Shown: piece after piece, positions 14,454 through 20,935 of the stretch
How the letters are laid out: every line of letters starts with the position of its first letter
Position numbering within the stretch: the stretch's first letter is position 1
Virus record (IMG/VR): IMGVR_UViG_3300035145_000338
Span: 1 to 30,134 of that record
DNA length: 30,134 nt
Origin: a virus
Direction: 5' to 3' (one strand)
Position numbers and translations under genes: made by a program
Notes under the pieces: model-generated
Databases searched by the model: none
What the model saw: the letters and a program-made list of their open reading frames with translations, nothing else
What the model was told of the DNA's origin: nothing

Positions 14454-16892
14454 TTATCGAGGTGAGAACTCAGCTAAATCAAAACCATCTAAGCTATCCT
14501 CGTTTGATTCGAAGTTCATCGGAGGAAGGTTGTTCTTTCTCTGATTAATAAGCTTTGATTGCTCTGTATTCTGCTGACTAATCCTTTGCGACTTAGCCTT
14601 TTCTCTTTCTTTCTCACGCTCCTGTAAAGCGCTAACTTCCATACCACGTAGCTGCATATTGATTCCAAACTCTTTATCCATAAGAATAGACTTAAGTTCT
14701 GCCTCTTGCTGCAGCTTCATAATTTGGTTCTGAATCTCTGACTGTTGAATCTGTATCTTAGCCTGAGTTTCCATTTCTATTTTCTTCATTGCCAACTGAG
14801 CAGCAATCTCTTGAGATTTTAATTGTTGTTGAGATTGCATTGCTTGCTTCTGCATTTGCATCTGCTCTTCTCTATCCTGCTTAGCTTTACGCTTCACTTT
14901 CAAGAGTTGGTTAGCAAGCTTAATGTTTTTAATCTCTCTAATATCAATAGCATCCTCAAGGTTAATGTCACCTTTAGATAATGCCATTTGAATATTCTGC
15001 TCAAGTTGTGCCTTCTCTTCTTCGTCAGGTGCTACCTCAATAAAGATTCCGAAATCATAAATATATAAGTCCTTAATATCATTAAGAATGCTTACGTTGT
15101 ACTTTCCAATCTTATTTGCAAAATCATCTGCAAAGTCGGAATACTCTAATATATCACCAATCCTATATGTTAATGCCTCAGAAAGACTTCTAAACATATA
15201 CAAGCTACCATCAAGAATGTGACGTGTTGCAGTATTAGAATTCAAGGCTGCTAACTTCTGTAAACCAACTAACGAGTTAGGGTCAGGCATACTGCCATCT
15301 CTCGCTTCATTTAAGCCTGTTACAGAGCGTATCATATTTAAGTAATGGTTATAGTTACCTATAAGCATTTGTGTCTTAGATGCCCCCGAATTAGATGTTA
15401 ACTGTGTAATAGGAACTCTTGCATTGTTAAACTCACCATCCTGAGTATAAGACCTACCAACAACAGAACCTGTTTGGAAGTACAGTCTCAATGCATCTTC
15501 AGGATTGTAGGCGTTACCCGTACCAAGGTCTACCTCGTTCAAGCCATCAGCATCTATGAATACACCATCAGGAACTACCTTAGCAATAACCTGTTGTAAT
15601 TTGAGGTGTGTAATCTGAATTAAGTCAGCGAATGGTATCATCCTTCTAACTAAAGATTCAATAACACCTTTATACATTCTTGGCGCTACTGCCACATAGT
15701 TTGGCAATGCGTGTTGAGATGATGATTTTGGTCTAACCATATTCTCGGCCAACTCCCACTTCAATAAGTAGTTAGTTCCCATAACCATCACACCATCATA
15801 CCATACATCAATGGTCTTTTCTATTTTCTCAAAGTTATTCTCATCCATCATTTCTTGTGGTGGATTGAAGGTGTCATCCTTTTGAATAACTCTTGTTGCT
15901 CCTGTATCCTCATTAATCTTTTTCTTATAGACCATCTTCTTGGTGGTCTTATAATTAAAGTACATTAGGGTTACAGTATCTCTGTAGAATATATCATTAT
16001 CATAATACTGAGCAGTATTATAATAGTCGTACCAACTTTGCCCACTCTTTGCAATCTCTTCTAACTGCTCCTTGGTTAGAGTTGGGTCAATCTTAGTTAG
16101 TTCTGTAATAGGAAGTGTTTTAATCTCACCCCAATAGAAACAATCCTTAAAATGTGGGTCTTCTGTGTAGCTATATACAACATTAGCAGGGTCAACATAC
16201 TTAACCTCTACACCTGCTCCGGGAAGGAACTCGTGTTTAGCGACGGCAATACCTAACACAGTTAAATCATAGTCAAGACGTTTTCTTAAGTCTATATACT
16301 TGTTCTCTTCAAGAATAGTATTGATAGCCTCTTCTTCCGCTATTTCAATAGCAGGCTTGTAATTGAGTTGCATATATAAGGACAACTCTTCATCTGACTT
16401 AGGAAGTTCTTCAGGCTCTATAGTAAATGGATTAGCGCCCGTCTTTTCTTGAATAACCTCTAACATAGGTTTCGCAAGCATCTGACCTTCAATCATATCC
16501 TGATACTTACTTCTCTTAGATTGAGACATAGCATCTTGAGCATAAGCCTTAACCTTGAATAACCTATCGGACATCCCATTGACTACAATGTCCACGAACT
16601 TAGGAAGAATAGGTACAGGAGTCCAATCCAAATTTAGATAAGACAAGTCACCGTTAATTGCTAATTCGTTTTTATATTTACCAACAGGTTGTTCGCCACG
16701 TGCATATAGTCTTAACCTATGGAAGTTTCTCCATTGGTCATAGAATCTACATTGTGTCCCGTCCTTTTTGAACCACTCATACTGAATGGCCTGCCCGATT
16801 TGTAAACCGAAAGCATCTGATGCTTTTTCTGCATCAGAAACAAATTGACTTGGAAACCCTGTCGATGTTATGTTTACCTTAACATCTTTCAT
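14454..16892 (-). CDS. Portal protein
   Basis: The 812-residue protein lies between large terminase and scaffold. The N-terminal part has YARGEQPVGKYKNELAING (about 63-81) and PKFVDIVVNGMSDRLFKVK (about 96-114), patterns I know from the large portals of crAss-like and marine podoviruses. The middle has YVAVAPRMYKGVIESLVRRM (about 396-415) and a stem-like helix around DLIQITHLKLQQVIAKVVPD. From about residue 640 to 780 there is a long Q/E/K-rich helix (EEQMQMQKQAMQSQQQL), expected to form the barrel crown inside the capsid. At 812 residues it is longer than typical portals, which fits a long barrel. Its ATG overlaps the terminase stop as ATGA, showing translational coupling. Confidence 0.85.
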   Translation of the reverse strand: MKDVKVNITSTGFPSQFVSDAEKASDAFGLQIGQAIQYEWFKKDGTQCRFYDQWRNFHRLRLYARGEQPVGKYKNELAINGDLSYLNLDWTPVPILPKFVDIVVNGMSDRLFKVKAYAQDAMSQSKRSKYQDMIEGQMLAKPMLEVIQEKTGANPFTIEPEELPKSDEELSLYMQLNYKPAIEIAEEEAINTILEENKYIDLRKRLDYDLTVLGIAVAKHEFLPGAGVEVKYVDPANVVYSYTEDPHFKDCFYWGEIKTLPITELTKIDPTLTKEQLEEIAKSGQSWYDYYNTAQYYDNDIFYRDTVTLMYFNYKTTKKMVYKKKINEDTGATRVIQKDDTFNPPQEMMDENNFEKIEKTIDVWYDGVMVMGTNYLLKWELAENMVRPKSSSQHALPNYVAVAPRMYKGVIESLVRRMIPFADLIQITHLKLQQVIAKVVPDGVFIDADGLNEVDLGTGNAYNPEDALRLYFQTGSVVGRSYTQDGEFNNARVPITQLTSNSGASKTQMLIGNYNHYLNMIRSVTGLNEARDGSMPDPNSLVGLQKLAALNSNTATRHILDGSLYMFRSLSEALTYRIGDILEYSDFADDFANKIGKYNVSILNDIKDLYIYDFGIFIEVAPDEEEKAQLEQNIQMALSKGDINLEDAIDIREIKNIKLANQLLKVKRKAKQDREEQMQMQKQAMQSQQQLKSQEIAAQLAMKKIEMETQAKIQIQQSEIQNQIMKLQQEAELKSILMDKEFGINMQLRGMEVSALQEREKEREKAKSQRISQQNTEQSKLINQRKNNLPPMNFESNEDSLDGFDLAEFSPR

Positions 16893-19135
16893 CTAATAAT
16901 TTCGCTTGTTGTTCCCTTGTTATTATACCTTGCAAAGTTAATGTTTATTTTTGACTGTTTTTTCTGAGGTTGATATATGTGCTTTTGACAAGCCATAATC
17001 GCCAAGCCTGAAGATATACTCGCATCATACTTGGTTCTATTAGTAATATCAAACTTTGCCCAATCTTCAAGAGTCCTTGTAAACACCATATCACCCATTT
17101 CGTCAGAGGCTCTATACGTACCCTCCATATCTATGCCCACATACTTCTCAATGTAGGATTCAATAGCAGATGCGTGTGCCTGTTTTACATCCTCACTTGA
17201 GTTTGGTATGCCGCCAAGTTCTCTTTCTGTTTTAGATAGTTTGTTCTTGTGTTTGTCCGGCCTATTCATACAATAGTTTCTGTATCCTCTATTCTTAAAA
17301 TGATACAATAACCTTGGCTTGTTATTCTCCACTAAGATAGGCATACCATAAAACACACAAGCCATTAATACGTCCTCATAAAATATCTCTGCGGTCTGCG
17401 GTCTTGCTATGTATTCTAAAAAGAAATGATTACTTGGAGCATCATCCATATTAAATTTGGTCAGCCCGTGAAGAGCACCATTAGAACCACCTCCACCAAC
17501 AACGCCTGATATATCATAGGAGTCACAACCAAATGCTCCTATATGTTCATTCGGAGGAAATTTACTCCCGTTCTTAACTACGGGGGCAGTTCTTACCCTC
17601 GAACTTGGTATCCAACTTAAAAAAAACCTACCACTTTTTGTTGGGGAAAACACAACCTCACTATCTTTTATTCCGTTTTTCCAATGGAAAGAACCCTGAG
17701 TAATGTGATGTTCTTTTATTAAGGAATCGTTGTAATCTATTTGTTGATATATCTTGGTTAGGTTGAATATTGATTGCTTGCTCTCGTCACGGAATGCGTG
17801 TGACTCAGTTCTTGGAAACTGACGGTAAAATTCATTCAACGCATCAGCATCGTTCTTTAAGGATTCAACCTCTGCTTCCCAATAATCAATAGCGCCCTGA
17901 TTGATAATTTCGTTATCAATACCTAACAATGGTTTCTTAGGAGTTCTAAATACAGGCATACCATACCTGTCAATAAACCCTTCCATATTCCACTCCATTG
18001 GGATGAAAAGTGAATACATCCCACTTTGTGTTTGTCCGTTTGCACTTCTCTTTAAAACATTAGAGTTCTCGTAAAGCTTTTTAAAGTTATCACCACCCTT
18101 TGCTAATGCATTAGAAGTAGAGCCCATCATACACTTTCCTATCACTTTACTACCCAACCTAAGACAAGTCTTTGTTACTCGCCAATTGTTTAGAATATTA
18201 TTTGGCTTTACCCATTTACCACTCTCATCGTGTACTAATAATAAAAGTTTTTCACCATCATAAGAGTTATCATCTGTGTTCTTCCAATCTATAGTAGTGT
18301 CCAATCCTTCTATTTGCTCATCATCTGAGTCAAACATATTTTTCTTTGTAATCTTAGATGCCGGTACACGATAGGCTAATTCTGTTTTAGGCTTGTCCAT
18401 ACCATCCATAATAGGCTTAAAGAAGAATGGTAACCTGCTATTTATAGGAACTACCTTATCTGTAAACATCTTCTTTGCATCAGAACCTGTCTTAGATAAT
18501 ATGCCAACCCTCGAATCTTTTGCGAGTGTTGCGGTATTTACAGACTCTGACGAAGACATAAAAGAAAATCCCGAACGTCTAATCTTTAAGTAGACCATAC
18601 CGAAACTTCTCTTATCTGCCTTACAAGCTTCCCAAAAAATATATAGTAGTCTATTAGCCTCCCTGTAGTCGGGGTATCCAACATCAATGGATGTCCATTG
18701 AAGGTACATATAATGACTACCGGTTATGTATGTTGGTTTACCATTATTCATAAACCAATACCCGTCCTCACGGTAGTCAAACTCTTTTTCTATATAATCA
18801 ACCCAACGGCTTTTAAATTCCTTGGGCATATCATTCCATTGGAATATAGATTGAATCTTACTCAGTTCTTTAGGAAGGTCTTTTCTTTCCCAATACTGAT
18901 TTTCTTTTTTAGAGTGTCTTTGAAGACACTTTTTAGGAGCAAGGGGTAAACCTATTTTTAGGTTCTGTATTTCTATAACTTCTCCTAAAGTTCCGTCCTT
19001 TGATATTATAATAAGGTCATAGGTGTCGTCATACCCATACTTCCAACTCTTTGCTTTGTTCTTGTTGGTAAGTACAGATTTAGGTACGTAATCTTGTACA
19101 ACTCTATATAAACTATTTAGACCTTCTTTCTGCAA
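16889..19135 (-). CDS. terL: Terminase large subunit (DNA packaging ATPase-nuclease)
   Basis: The 748-residue protein packages genome DNA into the prohead. The ATPase half shows an A-motif region YLKIRRSGFSFMSSS (182-196) that has F where the P-loop lysine is expected, a clear Walker B with catalytic acid LLLLVHDESGKW (297-308), and a coupling motif CMMGSTSNA (335-343). The RNase H-like nuclease half shows acidic motifs FGCDSYD (535-541), ILVENN (600-605) and SEDVKQAH (647-654). No ATG lies near the 5' end. I use the TTG at 19135, which overlaps the preceding gene by 23 bases; the first internal Met is residue 103. Residues 70-75 (CLQRHS) are encoded by a copy of the 17-base repeat, so this loop may be an insertion specific to this phage. 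Confidence 0.9.
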   Translation of the reverse strand: MQKEGLNSLYRVVQDYVPKSVLTNKNKAKSWKYGYDDTYDLIIISKDGTLGEVIEIQNLKIGLPLAPKKCLQRHSKKENQYWERKDLPKELSKIQSIFQWNDMPKEFKSRWVDYIEKEFDYREDGYWFMNNGKPTYITGSHYMYLQWTSIDVGYPDYREANRLLYIFWEACKADKRSFGMVYLKIRRSGFSFMSSSESVNTATLAKDSRVGILSKTGSDAKKMFTDKVVPINSRLPFFFKPIMDGMDKPKTELAYRVPASKITKKNMFDSDDEQIEGLDTTIDWKNTDDNSYDGEKLLLLVHDESGKWVKPNNILNNWRVTKTCLRLGSKVIGKCMMGSTSNALAKGGDNFKKLYENSNVLKRSANGQTQSGMYSLFIPMEWNMEGFIDRYGMPVFRTPKKPLLGIDNEIINQGAIDYWEAEVESLKNDADALNEFYRQFPRTESHAFRDESKQSIFNLTKIYQQIDYNDSLIKEHHITQGSFHWKNGIKDSEVVFSPTKSGRFFLSWIPSSRVRTAPVVKNGSKFPPNEHIGAFGCDSYDISGVVGGGGSNGALHGLTKFNMDDAPSNHFFLEYIARPQTAEIFYEDVLMACVFYGMPILVENNKPRLLYHFKNRGYRNYCMNRPDKHKNKLSKTERELGGIPNSSEDVKQAHASAIESYIEKYVGIDMEGTYRASDEMGDMVFTRTLEDWAKFDITNRTKYDASISSGLAIMACQKHIYQPQKKQSKININFARYNNKGTTSEIIR
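16933..16940 (-). promoter_or_regulatory. Possible internal -7 element upstream of portal
   Basis: The minus strand reads TAACTTTG (TAxxTTTG) inside the last codons of the terminase gene, 40 bases before the portal ATG. It could drive portal transcription, but it lies in coding sequence and has no -33 match, so chance is a fair explanation. Confidence 0.25.
18914..18930 (-). repeat. 17-bp dispersed near-palindrome, copy 3 (inside terminase gene)
   Basis: An exact copy of AGTGTCTTCAAAGACAC on the minus strand, read in the terminase frame as TGT CTT CAA AGA CAC (residues 70-74, CLQRH). The stem here is 7 bp (AGTGTCT/AGACACT on the plus strand). It is followed on the minus strand by TCTAAAAAAG, so it is not a terminator. 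Confidence 0.85.
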
Positions 19136-19487: not shown

Positions 19488-19952
19488 TTAAATCTTAAAA
19501 AACATAACTTGAACTAATCTTGCATCATCACCTTCTCCAAAGTTCTGTAAAGTATTTCTTGAATGCTTTACACTTGAGGGAAATATGTAAAGAGAATTGT
19601 ACTTTGCTTTACATACCAATATCTCATTATCGTTTTCATCGTATAGTGTTGTACCGTATCCACTTGGATACGTTTTATTCAAATATAATATAGCGGTGTA
19701 GTCACCGTGCATATCGTCTTTATGTATAAAATTAGGTTCTTCTTGTCCCAATGGAGACATCCTTGCAAAACTTAAAACAAGCTTTGCACCTAACAAAGAC
19801 TCTATAGCTTTTACAACATCATCTCTTTCTAACTCTTGGACGTTTTTAAAAACATTATCCCCTGACTTGAAATCAGTAAAGCCTTTCTTTTTTATATCCT
19901 CAACATACTTGTCAGGATTTTCAAATACGTCAGTTAGAAATATAGTCGTCAT
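19488..19952 (-). CDS. 2-oxoglutarate/Fe(II)-dependent oxygenase family protein
   Basis: The 154-residue protein has the ordered iron and cosubstrate residues of the prolyl-hydroxylase-like 2OG/Fe(II) fold: an HxD pair in NFIHKDDMHGDYTAILYLN (H77, D79), a distal His in FPSSVKHSRN (H130), and a basic residue 15 positions on in ARLVQVMFF (R145) that would bind 2-oxoglutarate. Such phage enzymes use O2 and 2-oxoglutarate to hydroxylate protein, nucleotide or small-molecule substrates; the substrate cannot be told here. The start overlaps the stop of the GroES-like gene by four bases, so the two are translationally coupled and may act together, for example in protein folding or modification. It is short for the family but complete in its core. 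Confidence 0.75.
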   Translation of the reverse strand: MTTIFLTDVFENPDKYVEDIKKKGFTDFKSGDNVFKNVQELERDDVVKAIESLLGAKLVLSFARMSPLGQEEPNFIHKDDMHGDYTAILYLNKTYPSGYGTTLYDENDNEILVCKAKYNSLYIFPSSVKHSRNTLQNFGEGDDARLVQVMFFKI

Positions 19953-20512
19953 AGTTTCATTGTAATACTGTGGTCGAACATTCTGTATAGCTTCTCTCCG
20001 TCTACCATAAACTCATATTCACTATCAGGCTTGAAACAAACCATATCTCCTTTGTTTATTCCTTTACTAATTAGATATTCATTAGGATACTTAACCAAAC
20101 CCATAAGGGGTTCTTCCTTAGTATTTTTATAAATGTACGAATTTTGTACGGGAATTGGTTCTATAAAGCAATACCTGTCATAGGCATTCCATTGTGTACC
20201 ATTATGGTACATAAAGAATTGGTCAGGTTCTATAAAGAATAAGTCATCCTTAAAGAAACTCTTTCCACTCTTTCTCCTTCCTTTAATGTCATTGTAAAAC
20301 TTAAATACGTTGTGATGCACAAGAAGTGTGTCACCAACTTTTATCGAACCTTGATATCCTAATGGTAGTTCTTTTACTATAGCTTCTCGATTCGCGAATC
20401 GAAAATCTTCTTCTGATGTAGAGGTTATAACCTCTACCCCACCTATGTCTTTGGTGTTATCATAACGCTTGCCCTTCTTGGGGCTCACTATAAAGTAAAA
20501 TGGAGACCGCAT
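19949..20512 (-). CDS. GroES-like co-chaperonin domain protein (tentative)
   Basis: The protein has 187 residues from the ATG at 20512; a TTG 21 bases upstream would overlap the preceding gene. The end, KGDMVCFKPDSEYEFMVDGE then KLYRMFDHSI, follows the GroES C-terminal pattern (GD-V-F, then E-DG-E, then L-hydrophobic, then D-I). The first half has IKVGDTLLVHHNVFKFYND (about 58-76), again like a GD-V-V strand. This suggests two GroES-like beta barrels or one long barrel with an insertion. Phage co-chaperonins (T4 gp31 class) adapt host GroEL to fold capsid proteins. It is coupled to the oxygenase gene that follows. The mobile-loop residues that contact GroEL are not obvious, so another beta-barrel protein remains possible. 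Confidence 0.5.
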   Translation of the reverse strand: MRSPFYFIVSPKKGKRYDNTKDIGGVEVITSTSEEDFRFANREAIVKELPLGYQGSIKVGDTLLVHHNVFKFYNDIKGRRKSGKSFFKDDLFFIEPDQFFMYHNGTQWNAYDRYCFIEPIPVQNSYIYKNTKEEPLMGLVKYPNEYLISKGINKGDMVCFKPDSEYEFMVDGEKLYRMFDHSITMKL

Positions 20513-20520
20513 ATTGTTTT

Positions 20521-20703
20521 TTATGAGCCACAACCTTCACATTCAAAGTAAGAATCCGTTGGTTTAACTCCGTTCAATTTCATTTCTATTGCGTGAATTT
20601 GGTCAGCTATTTCCATCTGCTCACCAAAGTCATCGGTATTTGATTTTTCTGCTTTTAGCTGCTCTAAATGAACAAGCATCTCTTGCTTTTCTTCCTTAGT
20701 CAT
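20521..20703 (-). CDS. Small coiled-coil protein with C-terminal CxxC
   Basis: The 60-residue protein (start MTKEEKQEMLVHLEQLKAEK) is a charged helix for its first ~45 residues and ends in FECEGCGS, with a CxxC pair that could bind a metal or be redox-active. It lies four bases after the 75-residue gene at 20708 and eight bases before the GroES-like start, inside a tightly packed operon. No family is recognised. I keep it because of the spacing, good start and compositional match to its neighbours. Confidence 0.65.
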   Translation of the reverse strand: MTKEEKQEMLVHLEQLKAEKSNTDDFGEQMEIADQIHAIEMKLNGVKPTDSYFECEGCGS

Positions 20704-20707
20704 ATCG

Positions 20708-20935
20708 TTAGAAATTTATATTATACTCAACAGAGATAGGCATAGTGCTTGTAAACTCCTTCCATAAGAGTATCTCTTCTCTATCACTCTCAATCCAAAT
20801 CTTTATAGAATCTGACTCTTGGTCATATCTAATAAGATGAATCTTGTGAGTTCCGTTTAAAATTTCCTGATTAACTATATAGTGCATTGCTCCTGACTTG
20901 TAGTCAGGGCCTATGCTGATTTTTCTTATATCCAT
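20708..20935 (-). CDS. Small conserved phage protein of unknown function
   Basis: The 75-residue protein starts MDIRKISIGPDYKSGAMHYI and looks like a small alpha-beta domain with alternating strands (HKIHLIRYDQ, SIKIWIESD) and a C-terminal strand (ISVEYNINF). I recall similar short proteins from uncultured marine phage genomes but know no function. It sits four bases downstream of the fibre gene at 20940 and four bases upstream of the CxxC protein. There are no cysteines, membrane segments or catalytic motifs. Confidence 0.65.
   Translation of the reverse strand: MDIRKISIGPDYKSGAMHYIVNQEILNGTHKIHLIRYDQESDSIKIWIESDREEILLWKEFTSTMPISVEYNINF

Follow-up and report, generated by a model that had tools for sequence, protein, structure and literature searches.

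Co-chaperonins that carry two GroES barrels in a single chain are known mainly from chloroplasts. One review treats this build as chloroplast-specific (PMC5780408); a later addition is the cpn20 of the Plasmodium apicoplast, which replaces GroES in E. coli (PMC3542282). According to the latter paper, Cpn20 keeps a mobile loop and a roof in both of its domains. The co-chaperonin gp31 of phage T4 is described as having no roof loops and longer loops, and as folding the 56-kDa capsid protein gp23 (PMC6318259). Among 78 environmental genomes from the phi38:1 group, 36 are reported to carry GroEL (PMC5332604), and methylated peptides of the phi38:1 'chaperonin GroEL' have been tabled from infected Cellulophaga (PMC13288928), which indicates that the phage GroEL is made. 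A table row for the Pervagoviridae names a 'chaperonin cpn10' among the shared proteins (PMC8776804), a label that may denote a single-barrel or a two-barrel gene. Our literature search, whose coverage largely excluded subscription journals, found no report of a two-barrel phage co-chaperonin or of its setting.

Here we describe a 187-residue protein encoded in a stretch of viral DNA of 30,134 nucleotides (IMG/VR record IMGVR_UViG_3300035145_000338, positions 1 to 30,134; hereafter the window), which belongs to a phage of aquatic bacteria. The protein is predicted to consist of two GroES barrels arranged head to tail, as in Cpn20, a single chain of about 190 residues. Cpn20 is also its best whole-length structural match, and a single-barrel partner is likewise encoded by relatives of the phage. 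The phage protein has short roofs in both barrels and a short loop in the C-terminal one, whereas Cpn20 keeps both; there is no useful sequence match between the two, and the protein is encoded by a phage and not by plastid-bearing cells. With T4 gp31 it shares a phage origin, the absence of roof loops, a longer mobile loop and, as suggested here, a capsid client. However, gp31, which is about 111 residues long, is a single barrel (107-residue chain), and it uses the GroEL of the host, whereas relatives of the window phage mostly carry their own. Bacterial GroES and the single GroES of the phages themselves have the same fold as each half, but consist of one barrel of 83–97 residues with a canonical SGLIL or GGIVL loop.

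Members of PHROG_13932 from Cellulophaga phages phi38:1, phi19:3 and Calle and from Flavobacterium elemo phages belong to the same family and occupy the same place on the side of the terminase gene. They are labelled cpn10, GroES or hypothetical, without a two-barrel description. Since relatives are already labelled 'co-chaperonin GroES', that label is not new; the build modelled here, two barrels without roof loops in one phage co-chaperonin, would be.

Two-barrel gene, its family and its neighbours

The two-barrel gene starts with an ATG at 20512 and ends with a stop codon at 19949; an alternative TTG start at 20533 gives a 194-aa form. The strings from which the original prediction had derived a GroES-like protein (GDTLLVHHN in the N-terminal half and GDMVCF, EYEFMVDGEKLY and DHSI near the C-terminus) are all present in the 187-aa reading frame. 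Comparison with five relatives gives a pS of 0.62–0.81 and a pN of 0.12–0.20, and the gene is real and conserved. Relatives were collected in one scan of viral contigs, from which the best 80 of 477 confirmed matches were kept. Annotated phage records match the protein in 85 cases (E ≤ 1), 77 of which cover at least 80% of the query, and comprise 68 from Flavobacterium, 15 from Cellulophaga, one from Maribacter and one further record. The Pachyviridae among them match at E 0.2–0.5 only; the phi19:3 type is linked to the window protein by tblastn only at the same E-values, and phi18:3 by its fold (5.2e-13).

The 194-aa form matches PHROG_13932, 'co-chaperonin GroES', with residues 8–185 aligned to positions 1–190 of the 200 in the profile. 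Pfam gives no match to the window protein at E ≤ 10, and the Pfam Cpn10 model run on the window does not detect it. The same model matches 20 of 48 members of the two-barrel family (E ≤ 1), and its cut-off is passed by three of five two-barrel relatives tested (L104, L106 and L107) and not by the window protein. By sequence, the family profile matches PDB GroES chains over residues 115–186 and the Cpn20 chain 7ekq_R over 43 residues (144–186) at E 1.5. We regard the protein as working like Cpn20, but do not file it as a Cpn20 member.

The terminase gene is the fixed neighbour of the two-barrel gene (Table 1). We surveyed 185 loci containing the two-barrel gene, including that of the window and some contigs fetched twice; the terminase is present in all 154 loci with at least 2.5 kb of downstream sequence, and its distance falls outside 0–1.3 kb in seven of the 182 loci with a terminase match. 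The annotation of Elemovirus, Pervagoviridae and Pachyviridae records shows the same neighbourhood. The proposed coupling to an oxygenase gene is not a family trait: the oxygenase occurs in only 54 of the 154 loci, and is an accessory neighbour outside the family core. The oxygenase-like gene of the window also weakly resembles phrog_1644, 'minor coat protein'. A relative of the 75-aa protein encoded directly upstream is found in 157 of the 185 loci. The 479-aa virion structural protein is probably the major capsid protein, by analogy with phage Calle, in which the gene that is third after the portal-side neighbour in gene order is annotated as such.

A cellular home of the gene was considered and rejected. 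A scan of genome contigs gave 13 loci, all in records titled as MAGs, of which 11 contain a phage terminase; the remaining two are pieces of 3.2–3.6 kb with the phage's upstream 75-aa gene, a relative of which is present in all 13. A 1.05-Mb contig titled as an Aenigmatarchaeota archaeon chromosome (L221) includes phage DNA in which the terminase, portal and two-barrel genes are at 66–81% identity, likely through misassembly or a binning error.

Table 1. Positions of the two-barrel gene, its predicted parts and neighbouring genes in the window.
Feature	Position	Strand	Basis
Two-barrel co-chaperonin gene, 187 aa	19949..20512	-	ORF; PHROG_13932 3.5e-22; AlphaFold2 pLDDT 84.4, pTM 0.78; 7ekq match
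Predicted N-terminal GroES barrel, residues 1-110 folded alone	20183..20512	-	pLDDT 85.9, pTM 0.77; VIA; shuffles
Predicted C-terminal GroES barrel, residues 107-187	19952..20194	-	GroES chains Z 8.0-9.3; family profile E 4.6e-05 at 115-186
N-barrel mobile loop, about residues 12-41	20390..20479	-	pLDDT 71 and 67 over residues 21-40
GVEVI (Gly and hydrophobic stretch), residues 25-29	20426-20440	-	aligned with SGLIL loop of single GroES (hhalign)
Shortened C-barrel loop with conserved S-Y-[ILVM]-x-K, residues 120-136	20105..20155	-	pLDDT 65 (121-130)
Terminase large subunit, fixed neighbour	16889..19135	-	phrog_6681 6.7e-184
2OG-Fe(II) oxygenase-like gene, overlaps two-barrel gene by 4 bases	19488..19952	-	PF13640 E 5.7e-4, below cut-off
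75-aa protein gene directly upstream of two-barrel gene	20708-20935	-	
Virion structural protein, 479 aa	11828..13267	-	phrog_13704 9.1e-104 'virion structural protein'

Predicted barrels, loops and roofs

The structure of the whole protein, predicted by AlphaFold2 from an alignment of 46 relatives, contains two GroES barrels arranged head to tail. The blocks of ten residues with the lowest pLDDT are 121–130 (65), 31–40 (67) and 21–30 (71), which are the expected sites of GroES mobile loops; block 71–80 is also lowish (74). The only PDB match of the whole model in Foldseek at E ≤ 1e-3 is 7ekq_R (5.7e-05, TM 0.55, rmsd 7.4), followed by 7ekq_Q and then by single GroES chains. According to their PDB names, 7ekq_R is Cpn20 and 7ekq_P is chaperonin 11; chain Q we take to be CPN23, a Cpn20-type chain. 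VIA aligned 159 residues of 7ekq_Q to the model from residue 1 to 187 (Z 10.5, rmsd 4.3). Among viral predicted structures, the 'chaperonin cpn10' of phi18:3 is one of the first matches. The 304-aa BFVD entry A0A516L046, which could carry a further domain, also matches the whole two-barrel model (E 6.5e-09).

Both halves of the protein are predicted to have the GroES beta-barrel fold. The C-terminal barrel (about residues 107–187) is matched in VIA by single GroES chains, and by T4 gp31 with Z 7.2–7.5. The N-terminal barrel alone has no Foldseek match at E ≤ 1e-3, the best being a Cpn10 at 0.034. In VIA, co-chaperonins fill the top 13 rows for this barrel (Z 7.3–4.9, T4 gp31 at 6.6), followed by dehydrogenases, which have a GroES-like domain. 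The tool itself rates a Z below 8 as middling, and we identify the N-terminal barrel as GroES because a single family occupies the top rows. The halves were also compared by hhalign with a profile of phage single-barrel GroES and E. coli GroES, with 200 column shuffles as a control. The C half scores 38.6 (shuffle maximum 17.5) and the N half 22.3 (shuffle maximum 19.0, a narrow margin; probability 15–25%), and none of the 200 shuffles reaches either score. The comparison of the N half with the C half gives a score of 15.8, equalled by 14 of the 200 shuffles, and thus no signal of sequence duplication. The two-barrel claim therefore rests on the structure prediction and the GroES match of each half, and not on an internal sequence repeat. 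These results bear out the original prediction of a GroES-like protein in a two-barrel form, with no unrelated fold in the model; the duplication that it read from a repeated N-terminal strand holds for the fold and not for the letters, in which the halves are unlike.

The angle between the barrels is poorly fixed, with the rmsd to the Cpn20-type match ranging from 4.3 in VIA to 7.4 in Foldseek. A homo-heptamer of two tiers, with the barrels of each chain stacked, appears unlikely, as few residues lie between the last strand of the N barrel (99–103) and the strands of the C barrel (108–110, 114–119); Cpn20 as the best match also disfavours it.

The window's clade comprises 36 of the 46 aligned sequences. 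Its N-barrel loop is longer than the loop of E. coli GroES and is conserved to 0.68 bits, against 0.70 bits for the barrel. Residues Arg16, Tyr17, Asn19, Thr20, Gly25, Ile29, Ser33 and Glu35 are invariant in all 36 members. The loop follows the pattern G-[IV]-[ED]-[FLVI]-I, with Ile or Val at position 26 and an acidic residue at position 27 in 35 members each, and Phe, Leu, Val or Ile at position 28 in all 36. The acidic middle position is unlike the IVL or LIL type of triplet, of which IVL in E. coli GroES is the GroEL-binding element of the mobile loop. In the C-barrel loop, Ser125 and Tyr126 are kept in 35 of the 36 members and Lys129 in all of them. The span from Pro119 to Gly138 has 20 residues in 36 of the 46 rows and 27–29 in four, and no clear GroEL-binding triplet is present in the C loop of the window's clade. 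Of the mobile loop with a hydrophobic triplet that was looked for, the N-terminal barrel provides a long loop of low confidence, in which an invariant glycine is followed mostly by hydrophobic residues, whereas the C-terminal loop is short and lacks a clear triplet.

In every lineage examined, Gly or Ser precedes hydrophobic residues in one or both loops, with the barrel concerned differing between lineages; two lineages have a degenerate C loop. The Elemovirus type has GLIL in the N loop and a C loop without a triplet, the phi19:3 type has GLEL in the N loop and SLIY in the C loop, and the C loops of Calle and of the relative L186 contain GLRV and SIIV, respectively.

The roof loop of GroES is missing from both barrels. 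The N-barrel roof segment from Ala44 to Asp61 has 18 residues in 43 of the 46 rows, compared with 25 in E. coli GroES (Glu39 to the same Asp), and the C-barrel segment from Gly138 to Asp156 has 19 residues in 39 of the 46 rows, compared with 25 by the same motif. The roof segment of the phages' single GroES has 15 residues in all 16 distinct sequences, and that of E. coli GroES 24.

GroEL and single-barrel GroES genes in related phages

GroEL and single-barrel GroES were searched for with Pfam models in 22 larger and 20 smaller records of relatives, picked by length; these 42 include the near-identical pairs W04/W05, W02/W03 and W06/G022. GroEL is encoded in 18 of the larger and 10 of the smaller records, 28 in total, and all 28 also encode a single GroES. 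A separate single-barrel GroES is found above the cut-off in 21 of the larger and 10 of the smaller records (31 of 42), three of which, namely G016, W04 and W05, have no GroEL. The remaining 11 records contain neither gene. The pair lies 4.6–15.4 kb upstream of the two-barrel gene on the same contig in 25 of the 28 carriers; in G023 it is at the opposite end of the contig, and in W02 and W03 it is far away. As the 11 records without the pair have just 0.2–6.1 kb of sequence upstream of the two-barrel gene, most of these absences can be explained by contig ends; some carriers have the pair at 5.8–6.1 kb, so a real absence is possible. L106 and L107 (Pachyviridae) and L186 encode the two-barrel protein and a single GroES, with no GroEL detected by Pfam, and lids in these phages would need the GroEL of the host.

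Neither GroEL nor a single GroES was found in the window by the Pfam Cpn60 and Cpn10 models. The close relatives G028 and G001 are 91–94% identical to the window up to its right end (G028 86% over the last 206 bases), with the alignment interrupted by an unaligned stretch of tail genes. Both encode a single GroES about 1 kb past the position of the window's right edge, with GroEL adjoining. It is very likely, judging from these two relatives, that the window phage has the GroEL/GroES pair just outside the record.

Phage GroELs have Asp at the positions of E. coli D52, D87 and D398, which we take to be catalytic, in all 14 sequences examined. At the positions that presumably form the groove, Tyr199 and Phe204 are kept in all 14, and Glu at 234, Ala at 263 and Leu at 203 occur in 12 each, in an alignment that may be off by one residue. 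In the groove for GroES and substrate, the GroELs of L201–L211 and L215 (12 sequences) have Glu in place of E. coli L234, and V263 and V264 are both replaced by Ala. No tail of the GGM type, the GroEL C-terminal tail type, is present in the inspected C-terminal ends of these 12 proteins.

Candidate roles of the two-barrel protein

The two fused GroES barrels most likely constitute a phage co-chaperonin that serves as the lid, or as part of the lid, of a GroEL cage for the folding of head proteins. The two-barrel protein would form or join the lid that closes the cage, probably that of the phage's own GroEL, and head proteins would fold inside it; among these, the capsid protein of 479 residues is the client that most readily suggests itself and that we propose here. 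Within the ring, the two barrels of a chain are probably adjacent, the arrangement of chloroplast Cpn20. Contact with GroEL would be made by the N-barrel loop, and the C-barrel loop of the window's clade would dock weakly or differently. With the roof loops missing and the N loop long, the dome would be open and the chamber larger, as it is in T4 gp31. Lid activity, client and ring composition are inferred. The lid reading is supported by the presence of GroEL and a single GroES in 28 of the 42 records, by the aspartates kept in the phage GroELs, by the gp31-like combination of short roofs and a long N loop, and by loops that are low in confidence, yet with the N loop as conserved as the barrel. 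The acidic residue at position 27 and the short C loop mean that GroEL binding is not assured. The position of the two-barrel gene beside the terminase and apart from the GroEL/GroES pair, the three records with a single GroES and no GroEL, the changed groove of the phage GroELs, the middling N-barrel matches in Foldseek, VIA and hhalign, and the low pLDDT at residues 71–80 argue against the lid reading.

A two-barrel lid in phages, often alongside a GroEL and a single GroES of their own, would offer a small culturable system for studying why fused-barrel lids evolve and how the sevenfold GroEL accepts fused barrels, and would extend the T4 gp31 case of phages remodelling the folding cage. It is conceivable, if rather unlikely, that the phages have a private chaperonin that is complete in itself, with an altered-groove GroEL, a single GroES and the two-barrel GroES, the latter two combined in a mixed, roofless lid of seven barrels, as an independent counterpart of the Cpn10/Cpn20 lid for capsid folding.

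The ring composition of such a lid can be envisaged in two ways. Three two-barrel subunits and one phage single GroES would give seven barrels on the sevenfold GroEL, a specific form of the lid reading that is tenable but doubtful. Both kinds of co-chaperonin are encoded in 31 of the 42 records, and the best-matching structure, 7ekq, contains Cpn11 (one chain) and Cpn20 (two chains) plus chain Q. Chloroplast Cpn10 and Cpn20 are described as assembling into hetero-oligomers that are functional and contain seven GroES domains (PMC5780408). However, the two genes are in separate operons, the data would fit a different lid for each kind of client equally well, the predictions made here are of monomers, and a real absence of the pair in some records would make the mixed ring slightly less probable. 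Alternatively, and somewhat improbably, three or four two-barrel subunits (six or eight barrels) would cap GroEL by themselves, as the cpn20 of Arabidopsis and Plasmodium does in vitro, while the single GroES serves other clients. The placement of the two-barrel gene among head genes, with the single GroES elsewhere, fits this arrangement, as does the mainly tetrameric Plasmodium cpn20, which is reported to replace GroES alone (PMC3542282), but the short C-barrel loop of the window's clade would leave such a ring with three or four strong contacts.

A role outside the lid, in which the barrel pair has been taken over for head assembly or packaging and binds the terminase, the portal or the prohead, appears distinctly unlikely, even though the terminase adjoins in every locus with sufficient sequence. 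The eight invariant N-loop residues perhaps exceed the needs of GroEL binding, and the degenerate C loop of two lineages points in the same direction. GroEL nevertheless accompanies the two-barrel gene in two-thirds of the records, and the GroES-like loops GLIL, SIIV and SLIY are kept in other lineages. A weak further indication against such a role comes from phi38:1, in which the neighbouring gp091–093 are noted as 'structural protein' and the two-barrel gp089 is not.
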